Origin: a virus
Virus record (IMG/VR): IMGVR_UViG_3300021437_000025
Coordinates: 1 to 55,205 of that record
Strand: one strand, 5' to 3'
DNA: 55,205 nt
Below, piece by piece: positions 7,458-34,327 of the stretch. The notes beneath the pieces are model-generated. The model was not told the origin of the DNA. It made no database searches and worked only from the letters and a program-made list of their open reading frames with translations. Made by a program: the position numbers and the translations under genes. Numbering within the stretch: position 1 is the first letter of the stretch; the number at the start of each line of letters is the position of its first letter.

Positions 7458-7560
7458 GGATTACCATGAAGATTTGTGCTTTTGGCAGGATTTGACATTT
7501 GTGATTTCCCATTTTCAATGACACCAACGGGCAGCGCCACATGAACTTATGATGATTGAT

Positions 7561-7630
7561 GGCGCCTGTGGGGATTGAACCCACGCCTTCGCGGCCTTGA
7601 GCCGTGCGTGCGACGTTACACTAAGGCGCC
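7561..7630 (-). tRNA. Phage tRNA, anticodon CAA by fold (Leu-type codon TTG)
   Basis: The minus strand folds as a 70-base cloverleaf: acceptor GGCGCCT/AGGCGCC, D arm GTGT/GCAC with a short 6-base loop, anticodon stem CACGG/CCGCG with one A-C mismatch around the loop CTCAAGG, a 5-base variable loop, and T arm GTGGG-TTCAATC-CCCAC. CCA is not encoded (ATCAA follows). The anticodon reads CAA, but leucine tRNAs normally have a long variable arm, which is absent, so the identity is uncertain. Its 5' end overlaps the stop codon of the giant late gene. Confidence 0.75.
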
Positions 7631-10600
7631 GTTTTGATTTGATGTATGTATTGCACCTTGTCGTCGTGATTGGTCGTTGTAGAACGCACGACCTTAGAGA
7701 TAACGAATGCTTTCATACGCTGCCTTTCCTCTGGACTCATTTCCTCCCAGACCTGCATGGCCTCTTCGGCACTGAAAGATCGCATTCGGTCACGCATGCG
7801 CTTGGTGTCGGCCTGCGGTCCAGTAGCGCGTGATTCCAGGATTTGCTTGCGTTGCTCAGTGGTGAGGATGATCTTTTGTTTCCTGGCCTCGGCGTTGACA
7901 TCGCTCATGCTTTTTAGATCACCAGATCGAAAATCATCCAACAGGGCAATGAAAGCCTCGTGTCTGGCCTGCGCTTGTGGGAGGCGTGGCGCAACCTGCA
8001 TGTGTCCGAAGTTGATATCTGACACTTTGCGTTCCGCGGCGGTCTTATGTGGTTGATTCGAGATACCGATGGATTGCAGCAGTCCGTTGATTACGGATTG
8101 CGCCATCGTATTGCCCATGTTCTTCTTGAAAAAGCCCTGCGCCGGTATGGGCGTCCATGATTTTAAGATATCCTTGGCGGCATCAACCACCCCGATTTTC
8201 TGCCCGTTCTGATCGCGCCCGCTGGCCATCTCCAACAACGGTCTGCCCCACAGGGGGTTGAGGCGGTGATACCAAAATCCGCGTGGATCGAGAATGAGAT
8301 GCGCGAGATCGCCAACGACTGAACGCGGCGTATATTCACGGCCACCGATGATCAAGCTGAATGGTTTTCCCCAGTTGGTCTTGTGATCATCACTGAACAT
8401 AAGATTGATGGTTTGCGCGGCCACCGACATGATGATAGCCCCGCGGATCAGCGCCATCATTTGCTCACGGCCTTTCGCTGACACGGCCTGGCCGGCGAAT
8501 TTAAGGCGCGCCTCCAAGAAATCTGGCGCAAGCAAGGCGATTTTCAGAGCGTCTTGCAAGGTAGGATTCCGGCCGATGTATTTGTAATTCTGTTCACCAA
8601 AGGCGGCGTTGGCCTGGGATGCGGCGTTCTCAAGAAGCTGATCGCGAGTGAACTTGCCGGCAGCGATATCTTTGGCGTAATACTGCTCGGCGCGCTGCAC
8701 GGCTTGTTCAAACATCGCTGCCTTTAAGCGCGGGATGTAATCCTGAAATAGCCATTCCTGGTAGCGTTTCAGTTGATCTCCTAATTTTGGAATCCTGTGA
8801 AACAGTCCACCAGACGCTAACCCTTCTCCGAAATCAGACATGGCGTTGTGGTTGTATAACATCAATCCATGATTCACGCCTTCACGCAACAATGGGCGCT
8901 TTTCAAAATCTATCTCCGGCGTGCTCAGTGGGTTGACATTATGGAAGATGGCGTGTTCGCCGACGTGGAACTGATGGAATGGGCCGATCAGGATCGTACC
9001 CTTAACAAATGCACCGGCTTCAAGCGCCGCACGGAAAGGTTGCGCACCACCAACTATAGGCACAGATTCCGGGATGGCCACGGTGCGCATCCACGACCGG
9101 CCCAGCAATGCCTTGAGTCGCCCCATCGCTTTGGGGTGGATCCACATATTCCCTTGCAATAGAATTGGCTTGCCTTCGGAGTCATTGCCTACCCACTTCC
9201 ATTTGCGGAGCGCGGGATGGTCCATGTACTGATAATCGGTGGTATCGTGGCCTTTGGCATTCGGCTTGATGAAATACGGCTTTTCGGTTTCACCGGCCTC
9301 CAATGGACTGCCGGCGCCACCGACAGCCACCGTGGGTCGGCCATCGCTTTCAACGCTGCCCATCATGGACTTGAGGGCCGCGCGCGCCTCAATCGCCGAA
9401 CGTATGGACCGCTCTGCCGCCACCATTTGATAGCCGATGCTCTTATTCTTTGGTTTGTAACCAGCCTGCTCACCTTCAAAGTAATTCTCAAATACCTTGT
9501 GCATCGCCTCCCGCGGCTTGGTTCTGAAAATACCGGCGTTGACCTGCGCAATGAGTTTCTTGCCAGCCTTGTCGGGACGCTCCCATTCGCCGCGCACGTA
9601 ATTGTTGACGTAATCCTCAAGAATTCCTGCAGCGTTGGCCAGCGTCCACAGATCATCATGGCGTTGCCGGATCGCGGCTGCCTGTGCTTTCTCTTCGGGG
9701 GTAAGTTTCAGGGCGTCTTCGTAACCCCTGCGATATTCCGGCGCACTATCTTGGGCGCGTTGCGCCAGCAGCTTTTCATCACCGCCAGCCTGCATGTAAT
9801 TGGTGATGGCCTCTTGCTTATCCTTCGTTAATGTGGCGTTAAGCCGTTTGGCGAGTTTGTGCAGGTTGAAATCAATCTCCTGCATGGCCCCCGTATATTT
9901 GCCGATTATTTTCTTGAGTGGCGTGATCTCAGGTGGGCGTGTGTACGCATCGCTTAATTGCTTGGCGTAATCGCGTACCTTATAGCCTAAGGACTTAATA
10001 AAGCCGTGCTCATCGGACGGGAACTCTGATTTGACACCACCCGGCGGCATGAATTCCGCCGCGACACCCTTACCGCCAGCAAGCGGTCCCAACTGGTCCT
10101 CACGGCTGCGGCTGAATGCCGGCATTGGTGCCGCGGCACGACGCCCAAACTCATTATGCGCGGACAGTTTAACTACCTGTCTGGCCAACGCAACGAGATC
10201 ATCTGGATGTAGTTTACCGGCCGAAATGATGCCATGCCGGAATAGCCACGCTTTGAGCGCGGTGAAAATACGCTTGACGACGCCGAACTTCTGCACGGCG
10301 CGGTCCTGCACTAGGTAAGCGATCGTTTCCTCGTCCTTGAGGTCTGGCGGCGTGTCCTCATGCACCAATAGCCGCGCGCGCGAGACAGCGGCGCTCATCG
10401 GATCACGGATCCCGTTCTCGGCACGTTTCAGCGCCTTGCCGACCGTCACAATTATATCGTTGTGAAACTTATCGCCAAGCACATCTCGGAGACCGTGGAT
10501 GCCGGCTTCATGGAGCAGCGTGCCGTAGACGTTGTTCAGTGTCTCGCCGCGTTCCAACTGCGATGCCACCAGATAAGAAGTTCCAGCGTCGTGATAGCCC

Positions 10601-13600
10601 CACACTACGCCGCCACCGGCGGCCTTTACGGCATCGGGCGGGAGTTCGTCGACTTGATCGACGATACGGAGCTTGTTGCGACGCTCAAGATTGCTGACCG
10701 CGGCCTCGCCGAGCTTGCCGACGAGTTCATTGCGGGCGTCAGAAACAGAAACCCCGCCGGAGCGGGGTTGGTCTGATGAACGTATGGGATAATCTAGTCG
10801 GGGTCGGGGCTGTTCAGATTGGCTAGCATCTGTTTGGTGATACTGGCCTCTTCCTCTGGATCGCTCGGAGGCGGCTTCCTGGGCACTGATGCCTTCGTAG
10901 ACGTGGGGCGAGAGTCTGCCGGCACGCTGGGCGTCTTCGAGGGCGGTTGAGAGTCTTTCATGTAGACCATTTTCATCTATTTTCGGTAGAGATTCAAGTG
11001 ATACCGCCATAGCTTTGCCATTACCGTGGCTGTTATCGATAGCCTCAAACATAACGCTGGGGTTATCTTTATAATGCTGCGCTAACTCCCTGATCGTCTT
11101 CGATGCGTTGATGTGTGTTGATTCGTGGCTGTACAGCGATATAGTGCGTCCTTTGATTTCGGCTCTAGGGATCACGCCATTTATTAGCGCGTCTACAGGT
11201 TCGCGGTATATATAACGCACCATGACTCTGCGGCCTGATTTCAAGGCAGCATCAATTTTATTTATGGCATTTTTTGTATTGTCGAGATTACCATCGTATA
11301 GAATGTCCGGCTTCTCTATGAACGTTCTGATAGAGCGTGTTTTTCCAGCACCAGTCCCGCCAGCAGTAAACAACACAGTCTGCGTTTTGCCGTCCTGTAC
11401 TGGTTTCGATAACAAGCGTTCATAAACCATCTTTGCCAAGTGGCTTGAAGGTTCACGAACAGCGTATGACAGCATGGCGCGTGCCTCATTGGAGGCGTTG
11501 TAGTCGTCCGAATACTCTTTGGCATTGTCTGCGCTGACGACATTGCCGAACTTCTTGATGTACCAATCAACGGCCTTCTGTGGATCGGCGTTGATCTTGT
11601 CATCCATCCGCTTGCCGACGGCCTGCTGCGACTCAATGCTAAACTTCGGGCGGCTGAACAATGGCAATCCCTGCATTGCTTTCTCGCGCAGCGCAGGCGT
11701 GATGTTGAAGCCTTGTTGATGTATTGTCGGATACGATGCAGTTTCATCTGAACGAAATGTTTTATAACCCTTAACTTCGCTATTGCGTAAATCAATATCG
11801 CCAACATTCCCGCCGCCCAGTTTCCTTAACACATCATTGGCGATGTTCGGTACGATCTTGTCGTAGAACGCCTTCATGCCTTCGCCGCCGACTTTCAGAT
11901 CGATACCGGAAATCTCGCGCGGTTTGTACTCATTAGGCTCTGGCTGCGCCAGAATCTTATCGGCGGCATCCTTGCCGATGACATTTTGCAATTTATCTGG
12001 TTCAACGATGCGAGTAATGACCTCTTTTCCATTGTGGTCATAGGCGACTAAATTGTGATCCTTCGTATACTGAATGCGGCTGAGTTGTTTGCTGAGATCA
12101 TAACGCGCCGCCTGCTGTTCGCCATTTGTCCATGCAATGTGGTCATAACCATTCTCGGCGGCATAGATGATGAGGCGCTTGAGCGCGAGAGAAACCCATG
12201 CGTCTGTTTTGCCGACGAAGGGGGCTGATGGAGCCATCGGCCGCGAGCCTTTTTTGTCCTGCTCATCAAAGCCTTCGCGTTTCCCTTGCTGTGCCCAATC
12301 GCTTTGCAGTTCTTCGATGAACAAAACTTTTTTGCCATCGGCATCAGTGCGGTCATTAAAGCGTATATGGGTGAGGATATTTGTTTGGTCGAAGTGGGCG
12401 GAGCGGAATGCGCGATTCTCTTTCTCCCCAACGGAAGCAGTTATCGCATCGAGGCGACCGCGATCTTCACGGGACAATTTGTCCTTGTTGTTGTAAAACC
12501 AATCTGCGCTATGCAACCCATATTTATCGCGCAGTGATTTCATCACTTGTTGTTCTGGTTCGCCATATGGAGCAGGCAACGTCAACAGCATCTCTCTGTA
12601 ATTCTTGCCGCCGGGCAACTGAAATTGTGAGAATTTTGTGCCTATCTTTGTTGTGCCACCGAATACATCATTTACAACTTTTTCAGCCCAACCTTCATCA
12701 TTCGCAAGGTGGGGGAATTTATTTGTCAATGCACGATAAGCGTCCTCATCATTGGCAATCGTTAGAAGTAAATCGTCATCTATATTGCCTGCACTGCGTG
12801 CGGCTTTCAGAACCTCTGGCAGCGCATATTTGCTATTGCGATTTATCGGATGTTCGCCAAGCGTTACATCATTCACCTGTACACCATTGGTCTTGAGGAA
12901 GTCGCTGATCTGTTGTTTCGTAACCGGCCCCTTCTGCAATGCTAGCCAGTCATTGATACCAGACCATTCGATCTCATCCTTCTTGACGCCTTTGAGATTG
13001 GCGATGGTGGCATTCCACTGTTCCGGTGTAGCTGAGTTTTGTTTAATTGCATCAACCTGTCGGCCCAATTCAGAATAGAAAACCGGCGCTTTCTCTTTTG
13101 GACGACTGAATAAAATGCCTTTGTCTGGTTGTGGAGCGGCGGTAGCCGCAGCCCTGCTCTGTAAATCTGGATAATCGGCGAGGACTTCTGGTGGTACATG
13201 CTCCCCATCACGTATCGCGCGCTCCAATACGAAACGCCGTGTTTTATCAAGTGCTGTTGTGCGTGATGCCGTGCCAGGGACTAGATTGGTTTCTCCATCA
13301 GGCAGATGAACGCGCATGTCATTACCAGTCCGTTGTACACGCATAATCGCATTGAACTCATCGCGTGACATCTCCCACGGCTCTTTAACCTTTGCAGATT
13401 CCAGCAAGTCACCTTGCCCAGTGGACTCATTGGTATCGAAAAGATCGCCGTGGCCGGTCAGTGAGACTGGCTCACCACCGATTTTCTCCTCGACTTGCTG
13501 GCGGCGCGCTTCAACGCCGTCGAGCGTGACTTCTTGTGATGTTGCTGCTGGAACTAACTCTGAGGCCGAGGCACCCTCTTTGGGTACGGCTGGCGTTACT

Positions 13601-16599
13601 TCTGCGGCAGTGGGTACATTGGCTGCTGGGGTGCCGAAGTCAGTCCTTTCGGCAGCTTGATCAGATACTCCGGCACCGGCAGTTTGTTGGCCGTGAGGAT
13701 GGCGTGGTGCAACATCGGCACCGTGATCTTCCGCGGCCGCAGTGGCTTCGGTGGTCTTATTCCTGGCATGGGAGATTTTCTCCTCTGTGGTGGTTGCGGT
13801 GTTGTTGCCGAAGATGTCGCCGGTCGCGGCCTGGCGTTCTTCATTATGCGCCTGCTGGCCGAGGTCTGACAACAAGGCCGCCAGCCGGCGCGGGCTGCGG
13901 CTGTTCTCACGCATAATCCGCGCCATCGTATCGGCGTCTGGATCGCGCTCAAAGGCATCGGTCTGTGCCAGTGCATCATTAACGGACACACCGGAACGTC
14001 TGGCGCGCTGCACAAATAATGCGGCTTTGGCGATCTTGGCGGGGATTTCGGTATTGGCAGTGGCGGCGAAGTGCGGCGCTGCGATGGTCATCGCGCGCAG
14101 CACGTTGCGGAAGTCAGGATCGGCCTCCTCAATGGCAGAGGCAATCAGCGTGTGGTTACGGTAGGCGCGGGCGAATACCGCAGCTTGGATGCGGTCGGCG
14201 AGCTGTTTGGTGGGCTGACGGTTGGCGTCAATGAGTCCTGCACGCTCGTTTTGCGGCACGGTCTGCATGAAACGGTTGATGAAATCTGAATTGCTGGCGG
14301 CCAGCACATCACCGTCTTCGGAGGGTTTGAAATCGGTGAGATCGATATGGCTGGCATCGTTCAACGCCGTCTCTGTTGCGGAATAACCAAGGCCCTGTTG
14401 GGCGTTTGACTTGCGCCCCATGTCATTTGCCCTGGTCAGGCGATCATCGAACAGGCGCACCAGCATGGGTTGCTTCATGGATTGGATGTCCTTCGCTGGC
14501 ACACCATGCTCAGCGGCATTATCCATCAATGCCTGCTTGTAATTATCGGCAATGCCACGCTGGTAGGCTTCTTGCACACCAGCTACACGACCGTTATTGA
14601 GTGCGCGTAACACGCCAGGTTGCGCATCGTAATACGATTGGTTCACCGTTCCATCTGCGTTATGCGATGCCTGCACCTGATCAGCATCAACCACAGCATA
14701 GCGCACAGGAAACTTTGCGCCATCTGCGAAAGTGACTCGCGCTTCCTTGCCAAGATGTGCGCCCGCAGGTTCACCGCCGCCTGTCGTGCTAACCATTGGT
14801 GCGCCCACGTCCGGGGTCGGTGCAACGCCCAGGCGGTCATAATCGGGGTTCCTGGCGATGGACTGCATTTGCTCGACGGACGCCGGGCGCGTGCGGTCGC
14901 GGTTTTGGATGGATAGATCGGAAAGCGCCTGTTGCTGTGGCGTGATGATTTCTGGCTGTGTGACTGGTGGCGAAGTTTCCGGTGCGGAGGCTGGAATATT
15001 TTCAGGAATAATTTGCTCTGGTTTTGCTGTGGCTATTGGCGGTTCGGTGACAGCCGCATTCTGATCTAGGTGAGCACTGATAGCCGCCGCCATCTTCTGC
15101 GGGAAGATGATCCCATTCTCGTTCTTGTTAATGATGCCGCCACTGAAACCGGAGAGGGCACGGCGTACTGTTTTGATGTCGCCACGAACAATAACGCCGC
15201 GCCCGTAAGGTTCTACCTTCAAACCTTGATCCGGAGGATTGCCTGAACTCAGCGACCCTTTGTCTTCTTGCCCTTTTTGGACTTCATTGGGTATCTCCTG
15301 TGGAGGCGCAGCACCGGCCGGCTGCGATTCGGCGTTAATTATTTCGGCAGTTTGAGCACGTATTCTATGCTCTATTTCTGTTGGCGTCTCAATAGTGTGC
15401 TGACCAGCAGGAATTGTGCCCTTGAATTCTGGCTGCGCCTCAAATGGTATGCTTTCAACATCAGGTGGCGTGGGTTCTATGGTAAAGCGGCTGGCGACTG
15501 GCGAAGCGGGTACGGCGCCAGGTGATGTGGTGGGTTCTAGTGGCTGTGGTGCGACGGTCTGGTTTATAGTTTCTGTGGCTGTGGGTTTTACTGGTGTCGC
15601 AGGTTTCCCTTTGATAGCACTGGCGACGACCTTGGCACCCAAATGCGCGGCCAATGGCAACGCCGTGCCGACCGCGGCCACGGGATAGGTCTCGGCCATG
15701 CCCTCTGTGATTGGCCGGCCAGCACGGATATTCTCAACACCTCGCTCCGCCTCAGAAACGGCAGGCTGGATAATTCCGGCTTGTACGAGAATGTTCTTAA
15801 CTGCCGAACTAAATCCAGGAACCTTGAATGGTGCGAAGCCGAACGCAGCGAAACCAAGACCAGAAAACGCTCCATCCAGAGTGGCGTCATTGATGGCTTC
15901 ATTGTAGGCGCGTTCTTGGTCATGAGGGAATTGTTGCTGACGGGCTTGCAGGTGGGGGGCAATGGATTGCGCGGCAGACGCGACGCCGGCCCCGAAGAAT
16001 GTACCTGCGATGCCTCCGAGTGGATTGCCGCCAGTAACGGCTTCGCCGATCCCGCCACCGACGGCAGCGCCGGTTATCGTAGGCAACGTCTTGGCGCCGA
16101 CAAATAAAGCCCGCGGTATGCCTATGGATGGTTTGATAAGTTCACTAAAAGGCTGTTCCTGTGTGAAGTCCGGTTGTGGCGTAGTGGGTGCTGATGGAGG
16201 CGCTTGCTGATTGAGGGCCGCAGGTGCGGCGGCGAGTTCGCCGACGGCCTGACCAATACCGGCCTTGACGGCCTCCCCGGATTTTTTAAGGGTGGCCATG
16301 AAGCCTGTGTCTGGCTTCTCATCGTACCGATCAAAGTAATTGGCATTTGCCGCTGGCGTGTCGTATTTATCAAAATAATTCGATGGTTTGGTGGGCGTCT
16401 GATTAAGGCCGACGGCATCGGAGACGGCATGGACGGCGGGCGAGATTTTGCTGTTGATGTCGGCAAGCAACTGCCGCATAGAGGTGGTTGAATCGGCGGG
16501 AACGGCGTCGGTGACCACCGAATCCGTTGGCATGACAGGTGTAGTCGACAACGCCGTGTTGCCGTTGTCGACATCGTACTGATCGAAGTAATTGGACAT
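7621..16599 (-). CDS. Giant polyvalent virion protein with ParB-like, kinase-like and protease-like domains
   Basis: A 2992-residue protein, the last gene of the late operon, probably injected with the DNA. The N terminus carries three NYFD(Q/K/R)YD repeats (near residues 3, 73 and 87), then Pro/Thr-rich linkers. Residues about 570-840 resemble the DdrB-like ParB domain of phage polyvalent proteins. The motif EELQSDW lies near 1430, a zeta-toxin-like nucleotide-binding site GGTGAGKT near 1747, and HEAGIHGLRD, a zinc-peptidase-like site, near 2030. From about 2160 to the end it is helical with a few hydrophobic stretches. It likely protects incoming DNA or disarms host defence. Domain calls are by motif only. 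Confidence 0.85.
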   Translation of the reverse strand: MSNYFDQYDVDNGNTALSTTPVMPTDSVVTDAVPADSTTSMRQLLADINSKISPAVHAVSDAVGLNQTPTKPSNYFDKYDTPAANANYFDRYDEKPDTGFMATLKKSGEAVKAGIGQAVGELAAAPAALNQQAPPSAPTTPQPDFTQEQPFSELIKPSIGIPRALFVGAKTLPTITGAAVGGGIGEAVTGGNPLGGIAGTFFGAGVASAAQSIAPHLQARQQQFPHDQERAYNEAINDATLDGAFSGLGFAAFGFAPFKVPGFSSAVKNILVQAGIIQPAVSEAERGVENIRAGRPITEGMAETYPVAAVGTALPLAAHLGAKVVASAIKGKPATPVKPTATETINQTVAPQPLEPTTSPGAVPASPVASRFTIEPTPPDVESIPFEAQPEFKGTIPAGQHTIETPTEIEHRIRAQTAEIINAESQPAGAAPPQEIPNEVQKGQEDKGSLSSGNPPDQGLKVEPYGRGVIVRGDIKTVRRALSGFSGGIINKNENGIIFPQKMAAAISAHLDQNAAVTEPPIATAKPEQIIPENIPASAPETSPPVTQPEIITPQQQALSDLSIQNRDRTRPASVEQMQSIARNPDYDRLGVAPTPDVGAPMVSTTGGGEPAGAHLGKEARVTFADGAKFPVRYAVVDADQVQASHNADGTVNQSYYDAQPGVLRALNNGRVAGVQEAYQRGIADNYKQALMDNAAEHGVPAKDIQSMKQPMLVRLFDDRLTRANDMGRKSNAQQGLGYSATETALNDASHIDLTDFKPSEDGDVLAASNSDFINRFMQTVPQNERAGLIDANRQPTKQLADRIQAAVFARAYRNHTLIASAIEEADPDFRNVLRAMTIAAPHFAATANTEIPAKIAKAALFVQRARRSGVSVNDALAQTDAFERDPDADTMARIMRENSRSPRRLAALLSDLGQQAHNEERQAATGDIFGNNTATTTEEKISHARNKTTEATAAAEDHGADVAPRHPHGQQTAGAGVSDQAAERTDFGTPAANVPTAAEVTPAVPKEGASASELVPAATSQEVTLDGVEARRQQVEEKIGGEPVSLTGHGDLFDTNESTGQGDLLESAKVKEPWEMSRDEFNAIMRVQRTGNDMRVHLPDGETNLVPGTASRTTALDKTRRFVLERAIRDGEHVPPEVLADYPDLQSRAAATAAPQPDKGILFSRPKEKAPVFYSELGRQVDAIKQNSATPEQWNATIANLKGVKKDEIEWSGINDWLALQKGPVTKQQISDFLKTNGVQVNDVTLGEHPINRNSKYALPEVLKAARSAGNIDDDLLLTIANDEDAYRALTNKFPHLANDEGWAEKVVNDVFGGTTKIGTKFSQFQLPGGKNYREMLLTLPAPYGEPEQQVMKSLRDKYGLHSADWFYNNKDKLSREDRGRLDAITASVGEKENRAFRSAHFDQTNILTHIRFNDRTDADGKKVLFIEELQSDWAQQGKREGFDEQDKKGSRPMAPSAPFVGKTDAWVSLALKRLIIYAAENGYDHIAWTNGEQQAARYDLSKQLSRIQYTKDHNLVAYDHNGKEVITRIVEPDKLQNVIGKDAADKILAQPEPNEYKPREISGIDLKVGGEGMKAFYDKIVPNIANDVLRKLGGGNVGDIDLRNSEVKGYKTFRSDETASYPTIHQQGFNITPALREKAMQGLPLFSRPKFSIESQQAVGKRMDDKINADPQKAVDWYIKKFGNVVSADNAKEYSDDYNASNEARAMLSYAVREPSSHLAKMVYERLLSKPVQDGKTQTVLFTAGGTGAGKTRSIRTFIEKPDILYDGNLDNTKNAINKIDAALKSGRRVMVRYIYREPVDALINGVIPRAEIKGRTISLYSHESTHINASKTIRELAQHYKDNPSVMFEAIDNSHGNGKAMAVSLESLPKIDENGLHERLSTALEDAQRAGRLSPHVYEGISAQEAASERSRGRGQYHQTDASQSEQPRPRLDYPIRSSDQPRSGGVSVSDARNELVGKLGEAAVSNLERRNKLRIVDQVDELPPDAVKAAGGGVVWGYHDAGTSYLVASQLERGETLNNVYGTLLHEAGIHGLRDVLGDKFHNDIIVTVGKALKRAENGIRDPMSAAVSRARLLVHEDTPPDLKDEETIAYLVQDRAVQKFGVVKRIFTALKAWLFRHGIISAGKLHPDDLVALARQVVKLSAHNEFGRRAAAPMPAFSRSREDQLGPLAGGKGVAAEFMPPGGVKSEFPSDEHGFIKSLGYKVRDYAKQLSDAYTRPPEITPLKKIIGKYTGAMQEIDFNLHKLAKRLNATLTKDKQEAITNYMQAGGDEKLLAQRAQDSAPEYRRGYEDALKLTPEEKAQAAAIRQRHDDLWTLANAAGILEDYVNNYVRGEWERPDKAGKKLIAQVNAGIFRTKPREAMHKVFENYFEGEQAGYKPKNKSIGYQMVAAERSIRSAIEARAALKSMMGSVESDGRPTVAVGGAGSPLEAGETEKPYFIKPNAKGHDTTDYQYMDHPALRKWKWVGNDSEGKPILLQGNMWIHPKAMGRLKALLGRSWMRTVAIPESVPIVGGAQPFRAALEAGAFVKGTILIGPFHQFHVGEHAIFHNVNPLSTPEIDFEKRPLLREGVNHGLMLYNHNAMSDFGEGLASGGLFHRIPKLGDQLKRYQEWLFQDYIPRLKAAMFEQAVQRAEQYYAKDIAAGKFTRDQLLENAASQANAAFGEQNYKYIGRNPTLQDALKIALLAPDFLEARLKFAGQAVSAKGREQMMALIRGAIIMSVAAQTINLMFSDDHKTNWGKPFSLIIGGREYTPRSVVGDLAHLILDPRGFWYHRLNPLWGRPLLEMASGRDQNGQKIGVVDAAKDILKSWTPIPAQGFFKKNMGNTMAQSVINGLLQSIGISNQPHKTAAERKVSDINFGHMQVAPRLPQAQARHEAFIALLDDFRSGDLKSMSDVNAEARKQKIILTTEQRKQILESRATGPQADTKRMRDRMRSFSAEEAMQVWEEMSPEERQRMKAFVISKVVRSTTTNHDDKVQYIHQIKTAP

Positions 16600-17546
16600 T
16601 ATTGTCCCAGGTATTGCTTAGCCGAACCGCCTCCGTATTTCTGGTCGAATTGAGAGGCGAGGCCGGGATTCTTCTTCAAGTCGTCAATGGCCGCCTGCGG
16701 TATGGCCTTGATGGGGGGTGCCACAGCGCGCGCGGCCGTGTCTTGAATATTGCCGCTTATTCTGCCTTTTGCAGCGGAAATCTGGCGGTTAACCTGATCG
16801 AGATAATAACTATCATCACGATTGGGCGCTTCCTCGCTAAAATCATCCTGCTTTAATTTTTGTGCCAACTCCAACTTGTCCTTCAAACTCAAGTCATTCC
16901 TTCTTCCGTTGATCAATGCGTTCGTGAAAGAAGCGTTTTGCCGGAACGTATCACGACTGTCCTGTACACGCTGGGCCTGTTCATGCTGAAATTGATCAGC
17001 GCGTTCTTGGGCGATTTGTTTGCGGGTCTGCCGTCCTTCTATGCTCTGCAACATCAGACGCGAGTAGACCTCCGGATCTAGTGCTGCGCCTGCGACGGGA
17101 ACGAAGGCATCGTCGAACGACATCGCTTGACCGCCCGGGAATGAAATCGTCTGCTTGGCGGCATCGACGGTGGTGCCCGCGGGGATGCTCTGACCGTCTG
17201 GAAAGGCGTCGTAGACGTTCTTCAATGTCTGCGTATTTGGGTTTCGTAGGAATGCGCTCCATCCGGCCATGATCTTTGGCGCCGATAGCGTATACGATGC
17301 CTTCACGATGTCAGGTGACTGCTTCATCATCTGGATGGCGAGATCGCCGCGGCCGCGCTTCACAGCCTCGGTGACGAAGTCGTTGAGGACGTTATCCCAC
17401 TGAACTTGGTTGCGCTGTGGTGGTGGCGCTGCCGTGTTGTTGGCCTGCATCGGCGCTGGCGTGGCGGTCGGCGCCGCAGGGTCTGACGCCGCCATCGGCG
17501 CCGCGGCTGCATCCTGTCCCTGTGGTGAATAAAGTGGCGATGGCAT
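16599..17546 (-). CDS. Internal virion-type structural protein
   Basis: About 315 residues from the ATG at 17546 (MPSPLYSPQGQD), chosen because it follows the upstream stop by one base and avoids overlapping that gene. The N terminus is Ala/Pro-rich, the middle helical and Gln-rich (RKQIAQERADQFQHEQAQRVQ), and the C terminus ends in GGSAKQYLGQ. No enzyme motif is seen. It lies between the giant protein and two similar low-complexity structural genes, the position of internal core or ejection proteins in podoviruses. Its stop overlaps the start of the giant gene (TAATG). Confidence 0.7.
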   Translation of the reverse strand: MPSPLYSPQGQDAAAAPMAASDPAAPTATPAPMQANNTAAPPPQRNQVQWDNVLNDFVTEAVKRGRGDLAIQMMKQSPDIVKASYTLSAPKIMAGWSAFLRNPNTQTLKNVYDAFPDGQSIPAGTTVDAAKQTISFPGGQAMSFDDAFVPVAGAALDPEVYSRLMLQSIEGRQTRKQIAQERADQFQHEQAQRVQDSRDTFRQNASFTNALINGRRNDLSLKDKLELAQKLKQDDFSEEAPNRDDSYYLDQVNRQISAAKGRISGNIQDTAARAVAPPIKAIPQAAIDDLKKNPGLASQFDQKYGGGSAKQYLGQ

Positions 17547-17547
17547 G

Positions 17548-18807
17548 TCATTGCACCTGATTGGTGGGATTGTAGAAGCCGACCTTCGGTAGATACGCCG
17601 CCTGCAATCCACGTATGGCCTTGATCTCATCGTAGGTCAGACCGCGGGCGTTAAGATCGGCATCGGAAATATCAGACATCGTCTTCAAATCATTGACTTC
17701 GAGAATGCTTGGTGTGCCGCGCTGGCGCACCATCTTTTTCGCGCTGGCAATGATGCCGCCGCCGAGATTCTTGGCGGTCGTCGTCAGATAATCATTGGCC
17801 TGCGATAATTTGTTTTTGCCGTACTCATAGATGCTCTTGGCGGTCTGTGGCAGACCGGTGACGGCGTCATTGATGGCCTTTTTCGCGGATTCATTTTTGG
17901 TGGTTGCGCTGGCGGCATCTGCTGAGATTTGTTCAGGAGTAATGACGCCGCTGGTGTCGCCGCCGCCAACGCCACCAGAAAAGTCTGGTGATTCTGCGGC
18001 CTGTGCGGCGTTGCCGCCAAACACCTCAGCCACCGGCTGGATGACGTTTCGGCTCGTCAAGTCTACGGCTCTGTCATAGAGACTGCCGGCGCCGCCTTTG
18101 GCGGCCTCCACCAACTGCGCGAACTTACTCTGCGGAGAGGCTGACGCCGCAATTGACGTGGGGATGCCATTGCCGTCACCTATGGCTCCTACATCTTTCA
18201 GCGTTGAAGAGGCGCTGACTACGCTAGGGCGCGTCACGGGTGCTGCCGCATTGATGGCACGACGAACTGGTGACGCAGCGGCGATAGGAGTTGGGGTTGC
18301 CGTCGGCTGCAGGGCTACGGGTTGTGGCTGTGGCTGTGGCGTGGCAGCGGCGATATCATTTCCGGCGCCTACGGGCAGCGGCGAGGAAACCGGCGCACCG
18401 CCGTCTGGCGGTAAGCCCTGCTTCAGCCAGTCCCATGGACGAAAACCGCTACTGGAGTTGGTGGTGTCGTACAGTGGCCGCAGGCTAGGTGACGGAGACG
18501 GAGACGAACCACCAGAGCCGGCGTCACCGGCGGACGCCAACGACAGGGCGCCAGGCGGCATCTGGCCAAGCGGCTGGCCGGTAGGCGACAACACTTGTCC
18601 GCTCGACTGCGGATAATCGCCGGTGGGCTTTGACTTGTCTAAAACAGCAGAACCAGGCAACACAGCTCTCCAAATGTCCATAATGTCTTCTTCATTCTTC
18701 TTCTTATTTTTATACTCCTCGTTCTTGCGCTGCTGCTCGCTGACCTCTCCGGCCAGACGCACACCGTGTTCTAAACCCTCAAGCAGACCACGTCCGAAAT
18801 TAGCCAT
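17548..18807 (-). CDS. Internal virion-type structural protein, Ala/Pro/Ser-rich
   Basis: About 419 residues from the ATG at 18807 (MANFGRGLLEGLEHGVRLAGEV). The N terminus is an amphipathic helix followed by charged residues (EQQRKNEEYKNKKKNEED). The centre is low complexity, rich in Pro, Ala and Gly, and the end is helical (SDADLNARGLTYDEIKAIRGLQ). No domain is recognised. An amphipathic N-terminal helix plus disordered middle is common in ejected virion proteins, which fits its place among the genes just before the giant late protein. Confidence 0.65.
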   Translation of the reverse strand: MANFGRGLLEGLEHGVRLAGEVSEQQRKNEEYKNKKKNEEDIMDIWRAVLPGSAVLDKSKPTGDYPQSSGQVLSPTGQPLGQMPPGALSLASAGDAGSGGSSPSPSPSLRPLYDTTNSSSGFRPWDWLKQGLPPDGGAPVSSPLPVGAGNDIAAATPQPQPQPVALQPTATPTPIAAASPVRRAINAAAPVTRPSVVSASSTLKDVGAIGDGNGIPTSIAASASPQSKFAQLVEAAKGGAGSLYDRAVDLTSRNVIQPVAEVFGGNAAQAAESPDFSGGVGGGDTSGVITPEQISADAASATTKNESAKKAINDAVTGLPQTAKSIYEYGKNKLSQANDYLTTTAKNLGGGIIASAKKMVRQRGTPSILEVNDLKTMSDISDADLNARGLTYDEIKAIRGLQAAYLPKVGFYNPTNQVQ

Positions 18808-18825
18808 GACTTTAATCACCATCAT

Positions 18826-20169
18826 TCAAGTAAAAAATGGTAGTTTAGGGATGGCGAAGCCAGCCGCCTCGCCAAGGATATTACCAAAGACGCTGCCCTG
18901 CTGATTTTGCGCATTGAAGGCGTTGATCTGGCTGTTGTAGAGATTATTGAGGCCGCCGATGCCGGCGCTGAAAAATGGCACCGCCGATGAGCGGCCGGCT
19001 ATCTGTGTGCCTATTGCCTGATCGAAATTACCCACCGCCGAATTGCCGGCGTTGAGCGTGGTGGCGTAGGACGAGCCTGCGGTATTCGGCATGTTGCGGC
19101 CGAAGTTGATGATGCCGCCGCGGGCGGCCTTATCGGTGTTGTATAAGGCGGTGCGGGCATTATTCATGGCGCCGGCCTTGTTGGCGGCGACGGCGGTGAG
19201 GCCGCGGTTCATCGCCTCGGCGTACTGCGGTGAGCTTGGATCGACGCCTGTACTTGTCAGATACCGCGCCAGCTGCTGACGCTCGGCGTCGGCCTGCTGC
19301 TCGACTTCCGCGCCAGCACGCCCTGCCGCAGTTTCGGCGGCCTGACGTTCCAAGCCGCGTTGCGCCATGAGCTCATTGGCACGAGACTTGATATCAGCTA
19401 AACCGGCAGTATAGGCGTTATTGATGTTCTTGGCTTCGGTATTGTAATAACTCTCCGGCAGTCCGCCGACATTCCTGGTCGTAGTCGTAGTAGTCGTCGT
19501 TCCATTATTACCCTGTCCAGCAGCGCCGACACTACTGCCTGGCGTCGAGTTGACGGCAACTACACGACCGTTTTGGATGATAGTACCATCACCAAATGGC
19601 GCAGCATTAGAGGAGGTGGGGCTTAAGCCGATGATCTTCTGTCCTGTTCTTGTATTCAGCCATATGGAATCACCGCCAAAAGACCCGACGCCCAATCTTG
19701 CCGGCCCGGTGTTGATCCACTGTCCGATGCTACTGTCGGCTGCTAGATTAGTCTTGTTTTCTGTGACGGTTTGCCCTATACCGCCCTGCCGTCGTTTCGC
19801 CAGATCGGCGAGTTGCTGATCCCGCTCCTGGGCCAGCACAGTGCCGTACCTATCAGTCATGGAACCGATGAGCTTCTGCGCGTCTTCGTCGCTCATCTCG
19901 GTGAATGCCAGCGAGTCCAGCACGGCGCGGTCCTCGACAGGCTGGTAAGCGCCTAGGTAATTTGTCCATTGTTGCTCGGCACGCTGCTGGCTCTGATCGC
20001 CGATGCTCAACTGCTGGTCCACAACGCGCCGCACCAGGTTCATCTGTTCAGGCGTGACCTCGTTCTTGATCCAGTTGAATTGATCGCGTCCAAGCCGAAT
20101 GGACTCCCTGCTGGCTATGCCGATCTGCGGATCTGGTTTTGGTGCACTGCCTTTACCGCCGCCACCCAT
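18826..20169 (-). CDS. Internal virion / DNA-transfer-like protein
   Basis: A 447-residue protein with the opening MGGGGKGSAPKPDPQIG and a long helical region with many Gln, Arg and Glu, as in podovirus internal core proteins that are ejected with the genome. A Thr run and a glycine-rich stretch (GGIGQTVTENKTN, then TTTTTTTRNVGGLPESYYN) break the helices. The C terminus is Gly/Asn/Ala-rich with an amphipathic character (FFSAGIGGLNNLYNSQINAFN). A clear AGGAGAT site precedes the ATG. It follows the acetyltransferase gene by nine bases. The class is recognised by composition and position, not by a diagnostic motif. Confidence 0.7.
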   Translation of the reverse strand: MGGGGKGSAPKPDPQIGIASRESIRLGRDQFNWIKNEVTPEQMNLVRRVVDQQLSIGDQSQQRAEQQWTNYLGAYQPVEDRAVLDSLAFTEMSDEDAQKLIGSMTDRYGTVLAQERDQQLADLAKRRQGGIGQTVTENKTNLAADSSIGQWINTGPARLGVGSFGGDSIWLNTRTGQKIIGLSPTSSNAAPFGDGTIIQNGRVVAVNSTPGSSVGAAGQGNNGTTTTTTTTRNVGGLPESYYNTEAKNINNAYTAGLADIKSRANELMAQRGLERQAAETAAGRAGAEVEQQADAERQQLARYLTSTGVDPSSPQYAEAMNRGLTAVAANKAGAMNNARTALYNTDKAARGGIINFGRNMPNTAGSSYATTLNAGNSAVGNFDQAIGTQIAGRSSAVPFFSAGIGGLNNLYNSQINAFNAQNQQGSVFGNILGEAAGFAIPKLPFFT

Positions 20170-20178
20170 GGTGATCTC

Positions 20179-20643
20179 CTATGCCGCAATCTGTTTAACA
20201 AGTTCGAGGTCTTTGGCCGTGGGCCTGATCCACGGACAGTCCTCGCGCAACATCCCCAACAACACGCCATCGCGTTCCCCAAATGCCTTACGCACGACGC
20301 CCTCATGCACAAAGCCAAGCCTCAAATTGAAGTCAAGCGAATGGGCGTTGTCCTCGTGGACTATGGCCGTCACGCGCCGGCATTGAAGCTGCCAGAAGGG
20401 ATACCGGAAGATCGGCCGCAACACCTTGCGCGATAAGTACCGCTGATGCTTGCACGCGCACGACATCTCAATGTCGGTGCCGCGATAATGCGAATAGACG
20501 ACGGCGCCGACGAGATCATCACCGTCCCAAAACGAGATGATCGACGGGTCGTCGAACACCGGGCGGCATGGGATCTGACTGCCAACCCAGGCGGCGATCA
20601 GCAGCTTCTGTTCGGCGTCACGCGGGCTGTAGATCTTCAACAT
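20179..20643 (-). CDS. GNAT-family N-acetyltransferase
   Basis: A 154-residue protein with the acetyl-CoA fold pattern: an N-terminal substrate region, DDLVGAVVYSHYRGTDIEMSCAC, then RYLSRKVLRPIFRYPF in the cofactor-binding loop region, followed by RRVTAIVHEDNAHSLDFNLRLGFVHEGVVRKAF, a typical GNAT motif B where an Asn-x-S/x-A helix precedes LGF. It would transfer an acetyl group to an amine on a protein or small molecule. Genes of this type recur in phage structural operons, where they may modify a virion or host protein; the target is unknown. It starts 13 bases past a terminator hairpin. Confidence 0.8.
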   Translation of the reverse strand: MLKIYSPRDAEQKLLIAAWVGSQIPCRPVFDDPSIISFWDGDDLVGAVVYSHYRGTDIEMSCACKHQRYLSRKVLRPIFRYPFWQLQCRRVTAIVHEDNAHSLDFNLRLGFVHEGVVRKAFGERDGVLLGMLREDCPWIRPTAKDLELVKQIAA

Positions 20644-20704: not shown

Positions 20705-21385
20705 TTAGTTACAATTTACACCTGTCAATGCAACAATATATTTTGTCCATGCCGCAAAGCGATAATAACGGGAAAGTTGCGAACTAGCCGACAAATGGAC
20801 GCCATCGGTTTGTAATGATGTACCAGTCGCATAACCGTCGGTTGCCGTGATCTGATTAGGCCACCACCAGTCCAAAAATGAGTTTTTTTGATAGTTGCTT
20901 GCATAAGCGACATTTTGTATTATTTTATTGATGTTGGATCGAGCAGTTAGATCAGTACTAAAATTAGATGCGAACGGCGGAATAGGCCACAAAATCACTT
21001 TTGATCCATAAGCAATAAATATATTTACTATGGTTTGTAAATCACTCTGCATGGAAGCCCATTCCGAAGAGTTATGATCAAGATTAATGTTGTTTGTTCC
21101 TATCATCAGATGCACATATTTGGGCTGTGTAACTCTTGCAATTTCATCAGCCATGTTTGCAATATCCCTGATCCTCGCACCGCCAAATCCAGCATTGATG
21201 GTTGTACAGCCGGAATTTATATTCCACCAGTAGGCTTCAGTATTGGAATCTCCTAACAAAAGCATCTTATGCAGCCCTGTATTTTGGGCTTGTAGGCTGA
21301 TAATCGCTTCGCGCGTTTTCCAATGCGGAAGATCGGCCATGGCGATTGCTGGTATAATTAGTAATATCAGCATTAAAATCTTCAT
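20705..21385 (-). CDS. SGNH/GDSL hydrolase with signal peptide
   Basis: A 226-residue protein. Residues 1-17 form a signal peptide (MKILMLILLIIPAIAMA). The SGNH blocks follow: GDSN at 45-48 with the catalytic Ser, INAGFGGARI with the Gly, IGTNNINLD with the Asn, and DGVHLS with the catalytic Asp-His pair near the end. Such enzymes remove acyl groups from lipids or polysaccharides. Its place directly after the tail fibre suggests deacetylation of a surface glycan, though a Sec signal is unusual for a virion part and may mean a periplasmic or exported role. Its start overlaps the fibre stop. Confidence 0.85.
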   Translation of the reverse strand: MKILMLILLIIPAIAMADLPHWKTREAIISLQAQNTGLHKMLLLGDSNTEAYWWNINSGCTTINAGFGGARIRDIANMADEIARVTQPKYVHLMIGTNNINLDHNSSEWASMQSDLQTIVNIFIAYGSKVILWPIPPFASNFSTDLTARSNINKIIQNVAYASNYQKNSFLDWWWPNQITATDGYATGTSLQTDGVHLSASSQLSRYYRFAAWTKYIVALTGVNCN

Positions 21386-22708: not shown

Positions 22709-22948
22709 TCAGTCCTGTAACTGTGTCAATATCTCGTTGATCTTCGCTACTAGTGTATGTTGGTCGGCCACGAGTTTGTTGTAATCGTCCGCCGCCGGCG
22801 CGCCGCTGATATTCGTCGCCGTCAACGTGCCGATGCTTTGGATCTTGCCGCCACGTCGGCCCATGATGATTTCCATGCAGATCACCAGCTTCTCGATGAA
22901 ATCGGGATTGTTACTGGCAATCCCCAAACCTGGTTTGATCTTGGCCAT
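22709..22948 (-). CDS. Small hypothetical tail-region protein
   Basis: A 79-residue protein of mixed character with a C-terminal helix (DDYNKLVADQHTLVAKINEILTQLQ) that looks suited to forming a coiled coil or trimer. It lies between the nozzle-like gene and the fibre gene, with its start overlapping the nozzle stop, so it may be a fibre-attachment or chaperone-like protein. No family is recognised. Confidence 0.6.
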   Translation of the reverse strand: MAKIKPGLGIASNNPDFIEKLVICMEIIMGRRGGKIQSIGTLTATNISGAPAADDYNKLVADQHTLVAKINEILTQLQD

Positions 22949-25050
22949 CAGACCTGCTTCAATTCGGAGATGGACTCCGCCATCTCCAACGGCGGCGATA
23001 TCGTGATGTTGGTAATGAACTCGACCTCGTAGTAATCGGCCATGTAGCCCTTCGGCAGCGTGAAGGATTTGCTGTTAAATACCTGTTTGCTGAATTTCAG
23101 CGCGCCGTCGGCGTAGAGATTGAAGGTGATGCCCTGGAATTGGGTTTTGATCAACTGCTGCGCCAGATCGCCAGCGAAGGTGATCTCCGCCGGCGACTGC
23201 GAGGCAAATGCCGCCTCAGTGTTGTCCGTCGTGGTGGCGCCGATGCCGGCCAATAACGTCGTATTGCTGGCAACGATGGCGGCATTGGCGGCCGTAATGG
23301 CGTCTTGTTCCGCCTGTGTTTGGGTGAAATCGCTGGCAATCCTCGCCACCTTCATATTGCCAGGCTTCGGCAACTTGAATTTCTTACTTTTCCACTGGGC
23401 GGTCTGATTGACGCCGGCGCTGGAATCCCACTGCTTGATAGCAGTGGTATCGACGATATACGCAAGGCCGGTCTCAGGATCGCGCCAGGCACCGTTGATG
23501 GCGTAATTGTTCGTGGACAGCGTCGCCAATGCTTCCTGTGGATCGAATATGAAAGCCTGGCCGTTGTTGTTGATGTCGCGCCAGAAGGCATAGTAGCGGT
23601 CGTCATAAGCAAACGAGATCGCCGCTGAGACGCCGGTAACACTGTCATGAAAGGCGTCGCGGTCGTAGAAATTCCGCGTGACCAACTGGCTGTTCAGCGT
23701 GTCGTTCAGCACCAACCCCATGTCGCTGAGATACAACACGCCATAACCGCTGCTGACGATGCTGAGCTTGCTCATACAGGGATAATTCACGGCCCGCCGC
23801 GTGAGCGACATCCCATCAGGGCTGATGCCTGTGGCAATCTCAGGCGTGCCGGTGGTGCAGACGACGACGGAATTGCCGTAGACGCCGAGGCCGACGATGG
23901 GATAGGCCGTCGCCTTGCAGTAGGCTGCCGGCCACGCATAGGGCTTGTACGGCTCAGAGAAACAGAGGATGTTGCCTTTACTGAATCCTGCGAAGAAACC
24001 GCCGGGTAACGCGACGATGCCGGCGAGATCGCCTGGCGGCATATCAAGGTACGTCGTCGGCTGAACGCCGCCCAACTGGCTGTCGCTCAAACTGTCGTTG
24101 TAAGTCGCAGCCGCCGTCTGCTCGGCGACGAAATAATAGTATTGCTGCGTGCCAGGCGATGTCGTGATCGTGCGGTAGATGCGCTGTTTCAGGCCGTTGA
24201 TGTTATACGGTGCGTAGCGTTTCCACGTCCCGCCGCTGGTGTAGATCTGCGCCGTTGTCAACAGCACTCTGAAAGTGGTATTTGACGGCACATCGTAGAC
24301 CAGGAAGTCGGCATTCAGGTTCGTCATGCCGACCACGCCAGTGATGTTGATCTTGTGACCGGCGTGCAGCCAGTGATTAGCCGTCGTCGTCACCGTCACC
24401 AGCCCGGTGGCGCCTGCATAGGTGGCGCCGCTGAGGCTGCCGGTATTGAGCGGCCCAGTATTCATCCCCGACAGTACCCAAGTACCCAACGCGCCGGTGC
24501 CGAGCGTCGCCGGCGAGATCGCCGACTCCTCGCCCCAGCCGTTGACGAAGGTATAAACGTATGCCCGCGTGACCGTGGTGCCGGCCGGCGGCGTCACCGT
24601 CGGCGCCGTCAATGGCGCCGGTATGCCCAAGGCGTAAAACGCACGTGGATAATCCGTCGCGCCGGCCTCGCCGTAGCCGCTGGGATAATTGTCTATGCCA
24701 TTGACATTGTCGGTCTTGGAAATCGCCATCTCCAAGCGGGTAACGCGCGGCTCACCATCGCCGGTGTAGTAGAGCCGTGTCCAGGTATCTCCCAGGAGTG
24801 GCGCCCGCCAGACATCTATGTTGTCAATCCAATGCAGCCAGTAATCAACGCCGGCGCTGGAAATCCTGTACATGCTTTTCTTCGTGCCTGACTTCGACGG
24901 TGTGTTGACTGGATTCGGCGCCCGCAACGGCTTTAACACGCCGTTCCACAGCTTGCAATTATTGGCGGCCTGCGCGGCGAAGTCCGGCAGTTGCCTGGCG
25001 TCTATGCGCGGCAGTATGCCGCCGAGCCTGGGAATGACGATGCCAGCCAC
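22948..25050 (-). CDS. Tail nozzle / tail tubular protein B-like
   Basis: A 700-residue beta-rich protein. The opening MAGIVIPRLGGILPRIDARQ and the early NNCKLWNGVLKPLR match the start of podovirus nozzle proteins, the tail part analogous to T7 gp12. The centre holds propeller-like strands, including WGEESAISPA and the blade-like WKRYAPYNINGLKQRIYRT, and the end is helical before a beta tail. It would form the tip of the short tail through which DNA exits. It follows two adaptor-like genes, the usual order. Confidence 0.75.
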   Translation of the reverse strand: MAGIVIPRLGGILPRIDARQLPDFAAQAANNCKLWNGVLKPLRAPNPVNTPSKSGTKKSMYRISSAGVDYWLHWIDNIDVWRAPLLGDTWTRLYYTGDGEPRVTRLEMAISKTDNVNGIDNYPSGYGEAGATDYPRAFYALGIPAPLTAPTVTPPAGTTVTRAYVYTFVNGWGEESAISPATLGTGALGTWVLSGMNTGPLNTGSLSGATYAGATGLVTVTTTANHWLHAGHKINITGVVGMTNLNADFLVYDVPSNTTFRVLLTTAQIYTSGGTWKRYAPYNINGLKQRIYRTITTSPGTQQYYYFVAEQTAAATYNDSLSDSQLGGVQPTTYLDMPPGDLAGIVALPGGFFAGFSKGNILCFSEPYKPYAWPAAYCKATAYPIVGLGVYGNSVVVCTTGTPEIATGISPDGMSLTRRAVNYPCMSKLSIVSSGYGVLYLSDMGLVLNDTLNSQLVTRNFYDRDAFHDSVTGVSAAISFAYDDRYYAFWRDINNNGQAFIFDPQEALATLSTNNYAINGAWRDPETGLAYIVDTTAIKQWDSSAGVNQTAQWKSKKFKLPKPGNMKVARIASDFTQTQAEQDAITAANAAIVASNTTLLAGIGATTTDNTEAAFASQSPAEITFAGDLAQQLIKTQFQGITFNLYADGALKFSKQVFNSKSFTLPKGYMADYYEVEFITNITISPPLEMAESISELKQV

Positions 25051-33538: not shown

Positions 33539-34327
33539 CTAATAATTCATCTCGCGATCCAGGGGTTGAAAATCAATCGTTCTGCTGTGGGTTTTTTTCT
33601 GCGGACTTCGCGGCTTGGCAAACCGCAACATCATCATCATATAACGTGATGCGCAGATCAGGTCGTCTTTGATCTTCACGATTTTGCCGTTATCGTCACG
33701 GTGATACTCGCGGTATTCATCTATGTACATCGTGAATGTCTCGAACACCTTCAGCCGTCCGGTGTCGAACCGCTGCTGCATCTCGAAAATACCGGCCTCG
33801 ACCGATGTACGGCTGCGGGCCCGCTCGGTCTTGTCCTTGGTCTCCGGGAACCGAGCGAATTCTTTTAGCAATTGCAGACCGGCATCGCGGTATTGTTTGG
33901 CGATCTGCTCTGCTGATCCTTTGTCGTGCTGCATGCCATCACTTGGCCACGCCCACTGAATGCCTGGGCACAGTCGTTTGAGTGCGCCGGAATTGGTATC
34001 GGCGTTTTGGCCGCTGCGCTTGTAGCCGCCGATCAAATACAGACAATCGGCGTCGGCATCCAGTGCGCCGACGACGCCGGCGGTGGGATGGCCGGAACCT
34101 CCGAAATCCATTCCGCCGAGGAATTTCCAGAATTCCGGAATTTGGAACGGCTTACAGATGATTTCTTCTTCGGGGCTGAGAAATATCAAACCTACACCCA
34201 TACGAGGAACGCCTTTGCTGCGCGCATCCCGTTGATGGGCCGGGAACGATTTCAACAAATCATTTTTTTCGAGCGCTGATAGATGAGGCACATCATCCCA
34301 TCCGCAGGTGATGACGGCCTTGCTCAC
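33539..34327 (-). CDS. Large terminase subunit, C-terminal nuclease part (separate ORF)
   Basis: A 262-residue protein equal to the second half of a phage large terminase. It starts GTG at 34327 (MSKAVITCGWDDVPHLS) and includes HQRDARSKGVPRMGVGLIF, then the RNase H-like nuclease with GGMDFGGSGHP (D74), WAWPSDGMQH (D130) and KDDLICASRYMM (D222). It would cut concatemers into unit genomes. Its start overlaps the stop of the ATPase ORF (GTGA), one base back in frame, so the two may be made separately, joined by -1 frameshifting, or split by a sequence error. Confidence 0.9.
   Translation of the reverse strand: MSKAVITCGWDDVPHLSALEKNDLLKSFPAHQRDARSKGVPRMGVGLIFLSPEEEIICKPFQIPEFWKFLGGMDFGGSGHPTAGVVGALDADADCLYLIGGYKRSGQNADTNSGALKRLCPGIQWAWPSDGMQHDKGSAEQIAKQYRDAGLQLLKEFARFPETKDKTERARSRTSVEAGIFEMQQRFDTGRLKVFETFTMYIDEYREYHRDDNGKIVKIKDDLICASRYMMMMLRFAKPRSPQKKTHSRTIDFQPLDREMNY

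Follow-up and report, generated by a model that had tools for sequence, protein, structure and literature searches.

A single late gene in an IMG/VR virus record of 55,205 bp, analysed here over its full length and referred to as the window, encodes a giant protein of 2,992 residues (P0001) that, judging from sequence comparison and structural modeling, contains a true zeta-type kinase domain of the reordered ng_zeta1 subclass. The conserved residues of this enzyme indicate that it is probably active. We propose, with confidence evenly divided for and against, that P0001 is a modular internal virion protein that is ejected, and whose kinase would block the UDP-sugar and envelope precursors of the infected cell. 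The features on which the analysis is based are listed in Table 1.

Table 1. Features of P0001 and of neighboring virion genes in the window
Feature	Position	Strand	Basis
Giant protein P0001, 2,992 aa, polyvalent virion-type	7621..16599	minus	Single ATG frame; Pfam and PHROG matches
Three NYFDxYD repeats, residues 3, 74, 87	16321..16593	minus	Motif scan
DdrB-type ParB region, residues 563-987 (Pfam core 668-715)	13639..14913	minus	PF18763, PHROGs, P1 DdrB
GNAT-like domain with EELQSDW, residues 1164-1660	11620..13110	minus	Viral relatives, AF2 model, VIA
Predicted zeta kinase domain, ng_zeta1 type, residues 1667-1920	10840..11601	minus	Pfam, profile, AF2, Foldseek, VIA
Asp1691, catalytic-base position (= ng_zeta1 Asp56)	11527..11529	minus	Alignment
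Walker A GGTGAGKT, residues 1747-1754 (Lys1753 = ng_zeta1 Lys115)	11338..11361	minus	Alignment
Arg1812 and Arg1818 (= ng_zeta1 Arg175 and Arg181, equal spacing)	11146..11166	minus	Alignment
Predicted zincin metallopeptidase domain, residues 1991-2140; HEAGIH 2030 and Glu2091	10180..10629	minus	Homology to MW202426 and JC1 giants
Constant C-terminal module, residues 2185-2981	7657..10047	minus	54-58% identity to L093-L096
Virion protein, 447 aa, JC1 gp64 homologue	18826..20169	minus	phrog_8003
GNAT acetyltransferase, 154 aa, JC1 gp63 homologue	20179..20643	minus	phrog_4470
Head-closure/internal virion protein, 700 aa, JC1 gp61 homologue	22948..25050	minus	phrog_511

Extent and genomic position of the P0001 gene

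The initial annotation had described a 2992-residue gene taking up 16 percent of the genome, and the gene indeed consists of a single reading frame of 2,992 codons that starts with ATG and runs without interruption from 16599 to 7621 on the minus strand, a strand that the annotation had left unstated. It accounts for 16.3% of the record, and because the record is linear and end repeats are absent, this figure holds as a share of the genome only if the record is near complete. The start of the P0001 gene overlaps the stop of an upstream 343-aa gene (TAATG), and the two are therefore probably coupled. A tRNA-Leu (anticodon caa) was also predicted at 7560-7630 on the minus strand, where it covers the last 10 bases of the P0001 gene, including its stop codon. 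No DNA-level match to positions 7621-20621 was found among phages, and an NCBIfam search conducted as part of the giant-protein analysis returned 0 families.

The late genes of the record match those of Bcep22-like podoviruses, and P0001 is the last structural-side gene, located in the late operon after the portal, capsid, head-closure, and gp64-like genes. In phage JC1, the DarB-like gp69 (4,515 aa) ends the corresponding virion module, and 51 unique gp69 peptides were identified in CsCl-purified virions (PMC9144972). P0001 resembles gp69 in closing a virion module after gp61-gp64 homologues, in having homologous neighbors, and in carrying a common protease domain. The designation of P0001 as a late gene is thus upheld, its position equaling that of a protein detected in virions by mass spectrometry, and by analogy its place in the late operon and the protease domain that it shares with gp69 suggest a role for P0001 in the virion. 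Beyond the protease, however, no sequence similarity between the two proteins was detected, and gp69 is annotated as an antirestriction protein whereas P0001 has no detected methylase or helicase. The nearest capsid protein is that of MW202426 (54.7%), and the giant protein of MW202426 shares only the protease with P0001. Elsewhere in the window, the large terminase is present as two ORFs on the minus strand (33539-34327 and 34324-35115) that overlap by a few bases and whose matches to TerL families fall in the C-terminal and ATPase portions, indicating either a split gene or a frameshift, and a lipase/esterase-like gene (20705-21385, minus strand) lies in the late operon between the tail fiber and GNAT genes.

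Several phages provide precedents for large proteins that are carried in the particle. In P1, the head proteins include DdrB and DarB, the latter of which begins with 30 residues that target a reporter to the capsid (PMC9024508), while N4-like phages eject a protein of ~3,500 residues (PMC12633501). The initial annotation had drawn on P1 to propose that P0001 is injected to guard DNA. This proposal was not borne out, as P1 DdrB, a protein of 108.7 kDa, is described as helping the addition of DarB to the capsid (PMC9024508), and no Pfam match to a DarB-type methylase or helicase was obtained for P0001 at E <= 1. P0001 as a DNA-guarding protein of the DarB type was therefore rejected, although a giant with a related C-terminus (L095) does contain a strawberry-notch-type helicase pair.

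The zeta kinase domain and its relatives

The Pfam family Zeta_toxin (PF06414) matches P0001 with 35.2 bits compared to a cutoff of 22.3. The best-matching stretch, residues 1763-1843, lies C-terminal of the P-loop, while the alignment to ng_zeta1 begins 62 residues before the P-loop. When the kinase segment alone was compared with solved structures, ng_zeta1 of Neisseria gonorrhoeae was matched (E 2.4e-4), and a profile of 35 phage-type sequences matched ng_zeta1 (6eph) with an E of 7.3e-17 over model positions 18-259 of 263. An AlphaFold2 model of the domain, built on 35 sequences and ending at residue 1920, had a pLDDT of 90.1 and a pTM of 0.87 and gave a Foldseek match with an E of 4e-13. 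In the VIA comparison, 245 residues of this model aligned with 6EPH (Z 27.4, rmsd 2.0 A), and the next folds were AvrRxo1 (Z 12.1) and then streptococcal zeta (10.7). The structural matches end at ng_zeta1 residue 271-272. The initial annotation had recognized a zeta-toxin-like P-loop and had named similarity limited to the Walker A motif as the outcome that would speak against it; such a Walker-A-only reading is ruled out by the Pfam score, the ng_zeta1 alignment, the profile, and the fold. A match to interferon-gamma (E 0.49) was weak and was taken as chance.

In the ng_zeta1 subclass, two sequence blocks are swapped and the catalytic Asp56 is found ahead of the P-loop Lys115 (PMC5923241). 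The block order in P0001 is the same, with Asp1691 preceding Lys1753, and the likeness to ng_zeta1 (6EPG/6EPH/6EPI) extends over this Asp block, the whole kinase fold, and equivalents of Asp56, Lys59 (Lys1694 in P0001), Lys115, Arg175, and Arg181. On this sequence and model evidence, the P-loop call of the initial annotation can be refined to membership of the reordered subclass. There are also clear differences. The ng_zeta1 protein is a free-standing toxin, with an antitoxin and a C-terminal OB domain, whereas the P0001 kinase is a segment of a 2,992-residue protein, and Asn75 of ng_zeta1 is not kept in P0001, where its position is occupied by Ser1711.

To place this domain among its relatives, an alignment of the P0001 and MW202577 kinases was searched against viral contigs with EPSS as a search pattern. 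From 87 pattern matches, 52 viral contigs were confirmed, all 52 of which hold an ORF with the kinase domain. After removal of identical segments, 37 distinct phage-type sequences remained, P0001 and MW202577 included. The invariance of EPSS in this clade is no evidence, since EPSS was a search pattern, but Asp1691, Lys1753, Asp1769, Arg1818, His1829, and Asn1856 were each found in 37/37 sequences, and the Asp1691 equivalent was also present in all five plasmid sequences; Arg1812 was found in seven of the 37 and is absent in 30. In a tree, the 37 phage-type sequences were separated from the 5 plasmid sequences with 100/100 support, and the P0001 kinase formed a long, deep branch. Among 50,697 named phage records, the clade was found only in MW202577, a phage record from an environmental sample, at both E <= 0.01 and E <= 0.001. 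Two scans of genome contigs returned 26 and 591 stretches, and a clade member was confirmed in none of them. The P0001 kinase segment alone, searched against viral contigs, returned 7 stretches with no relative among them, and a search of plasmids with the kinase of one clade member (L044) found none.

These comparisons bear on whether the domain still functions. It could be an inactive remnant or structural filler, as it lies in a region swapped freely among phages and the P0001 copy is divergent. However, 37/37 sequences retain the P-loop, the Asp and Arg positions, and further polar residues despite an overall identity of only 25-33% to the P0001 kinase, and because the active site is conserved, we regard a remnant as highly improbable.

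The comparisons also bear on what the enzyme would act upon. The ng_zeta1 kinase phosphorylates UDP-MurNAc, UDP-GlcNAc, and UDP-glucose at the 4'-OH, with Asn75 and Lys59 binding the lactyl group of UDP-MurNAc, and this phosphorylation of UDP-sugars lyses E. coli (PMC5923241). At the Asn75 position, the phage-type sequences have Ala (25), Val (11), or Ser (P0001 only), and the HN motif that follows is replaced throughout the clade as well; Asn75 is kept in 5/5 plasmid relatives. Owing to this replacement, the substrate may differ from that of ng_zeta1. One alternative is therefore that the kinase acts in counter-defence on another small molecule, such as NAD or a precursor in the manner of AvrRxo1, a nucleotide, or a defence signal. 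The altered pocket across the clade would fit this explanation, as would the rank of AvrRxo1 as second-best fold, given that AvrRxo1 phosphorylates NAD according to the ng_zeta1 paper (PMC5923241). Nevertheless, ng_zeta1 is nearest in sequence, block order, and fold, and P0001 has the equivalents of Lys59, Asp56, Arg175, and Arg181, so that we consider another substrate unlikely, if worth keeping in view.

Domains around the kinase

P0001 combines several unrelated enzyme-type domains (ParB, GNAT-like, kinase, and zincin) and adjoins virion genes, as is characteristic of polyvalent proteins, late-gene giants in which a DdrB-type ParB domain and a zincin accompany other enzymes (Iyer et al. 2017, PMC5512222). 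The N-terminal NYFDxYD repeats, which may be a packaging or binding signal, were not seen as a repeat in a motif scan of 33 relatives that share the GNAT-like domain. The DdrB-like ParB region reported in the initial annotation was confirmed by PF18763 (66.1 bits compared to a cutoff of 27.6; E 4e-18) and by matches to four PHROGs, and P1 DdrB is 35% identical to P0001 over residues 669-931. P1 DdrB also has a C-terminal zincin according to Iyer et al. (PMC5512222), but no kinase or GNAT-like part is described for it in the available sections of the P1 account (PMC9024508).

The motifs singled out by the initial annotation are all present, with GGTGAGKT at residue 1747 and HEAGIHGLRD at residue 2030 as it had indicated. 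It had listed EELQSDW as a feature in its own right, and this motif, at residue 1429, is better described as part of a larger domain that looks GNAT-like by its modeled fold, and which we do not call a GNAT. This domain is encoded by 33 viral loci in ORFs of ~1,200 to 5,300 aa, several of which end at contig edges, and it is common in giant phage proteins (L001-L033, L035, L096). Its AlphaFold2 model had a pLDDT of 73.9, and all 50 of 50 rows in the VIA comparison were of acetyltransferase type, the best with a Z of 10.5 and an rmsd of 3.2 over 130/497 residues. Foldseek returned nothing for this model at E <= 0.001, the sequence had no match in the PDB, and no Pfam match was obtained for the domain.

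Residues 1991-2140, noted as protease-like in the initial annotation, constitute by homology a zincin protease domain. This segment matches the giant proteins of MW202426 and JC1 with 45.4 and 32.7 bits, respectively, compared to 25.4 bits for the best of 200 segment shuffles, and the HE...H motif and downstream Glu are kept in 8/8 aligned sequences (in JC1 as HExxH), five of which were picked because of their HExxxH motif. When the protease segment was searched against viral contigs, 3 stretches were returned, none of them a relative. An HExxH or HExxxH motif also occurs 26-172 residues after the GNAT-like domain in 13 of the 33 proteins with that domain, and in P0001 the kinase sits between the GNAT-like domain and the zincin motif.

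The C-terminal module of ~800 residues is 54-58% identical in four viral contigs (L093-L096), three of them distinct, as L093 and L095 appear to encode one identical giant protein. The parts N-terminal to it differ. A strawberry-notch-type helicase pair is found in L095, no Pfam match was obtained for the N-terminal parts of L094 and L096, and the L096 giant has the GNAT-like domain and lacks the kinase. This combination of a shared C-terminus with differing N-terminal parts amounts, at the sequence level, to a constant carrier with exchangeable cargo. The P0001 copy of the module had no Pfam family above cutoff (weak HTH_32 only), the module had no match in the PDB, and the DNA retrieved for L093-L096 gave no match to any of 25 other window proteins (E 1e-8). 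At three of the four loci with this module, PHROGs gave 0 matches for 10 proteins (nine flanking proteins and the L094 giant), giving these loci no sign of being virion gene blocks and weighing against our preferred explanation.

Carriers of the kinase and its proposed role

Clustering of the parts preceding the kinase at the 52 loci yielded 37 of portal type, 9 of MuF type, 4 of unknown type (L042, L051, L053, and L081), and two that stand alone (L049 and L041). The portal cluster was formed by single linkage on the pre-kinase part and includes short proteins with a separate portal gene, as in L055 and L063, where the portal gene lies shortly upstream of the kinase gene. Of 37 proteins scanned with Pfam, 14 had a portal domain, 7 had MuF, and 20 had Zeta_toxin. 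In L041, a lysozyme/tail-injection-type part is followed by the kinase and then by the start of a DdrB-ParB domain. In L055, a protein encoded downstream of the separate portal and kinase genes (L055:14393-16837) has a Nudix-hydrolase-like stretch and also matches a portal-family PHROG. A virion role for P0001 is supported by the finding that head or ejection proteins of portal, MuF, and lysozyme type carry kinases of this clade, and fusions of VIP2 to MuF and of MuF to portal are a precedent for enzymes mounted on particle proteins (PMC7302621).

Based on these data, we infer packaging, ejection, cleavage, kinase activity, and substrate as follows. P0001 would be synthesized late and packaged into the head, from which it would be ejected along with the DNA. 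The C-terminal 800 residues would serve as the carrier that fits P0001 to the particle or the ejection machinery, and the N-terminal 2,100 residues would be swappable cargo, with the zincin, located between the two, cutting the cargo enzymes free. The freed zeta domain would then act as an ATP-dependent kinase on the UDP-activated sugars of the infected cell, halting the synthesis of wall and envelope precursors early in infection, and it would need no antitoxin because the infected cell is doomed.

The portal protein normally remains in the particle. A kinase mounted on it may for this reason not be delivered, which counts against delivery as the main reading. Moreover, the kinase might instead work late in the producing cell, draining wall precursors and aiding timed lysis, in which case its presence in the particle would be a by-product or a means of sequestering it. 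The late position of the P0001 gene, the lysis of E. coli upon ng_zeta1 expression (PMC5923241), and the fusion of the kinase to MuF and to portal would all be accommodated by such a role, portal proteins being without known translocation. On the other hand, the carrier of P0001 is of the ejected-giant type, lysis genes are already present in phages, and poisoning the wall during assembly would be expected to lower burst size. On balance, we judge late action in the producing cell to be improbable.

Polyvalent proteins, and zeta kinases within them, are already known: Iyer et al. name a zeta-like kinase for conjugative elements and MuF fusions, while the sections of that paper considered here name neither the combination of DdrB-ParB, GNAT-like, zeta, and zincin domains nor a zeta-portal fusion, either of which may be listed in its Fig. 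5F or supplement (PMC5512222). As far as the literature was searched, the recognition that a phage kinase with an altered pocket belongs to the reordered ng_zeta1 subclass, the distribution of one kinase clade over four kinds of carrier (portal, MuF, lysozyme-type, and DdrB), the domain order ParB/GNAT-like/kinase/zincin, and the exchange of carrier and cargo are new.

More generally, we tentatively suggest, while holding it to be doubtful, that uncultured phages share a distinct group of virion-borne, antitoxin-free sugar-nucleotide kinases that are related to ng_zeta1, have another substrate pocket, and are mounted on at least four particle-protein carriers (portal, MuF, lysozyme-type head/ejection protein, and giant DdrB polyprotein), and that these would serve in the early seizure of envelope precursors or of a nucleotide-sugar defence signal. 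The kinase is a defined segment of 266 residues and is directly testable, and the division into carrier and cargo offers a means of predicting which other giant genes, so far without annotation, encode injected enzymes. That a single kinase clade has become attached time and again to particle proteins of several kinds suggests that the phages have a need in common. Should the kinase be delivered, a central envelope pathway would be blocked by an enzyme, rather than by a gene, ahead of phage gene expression.
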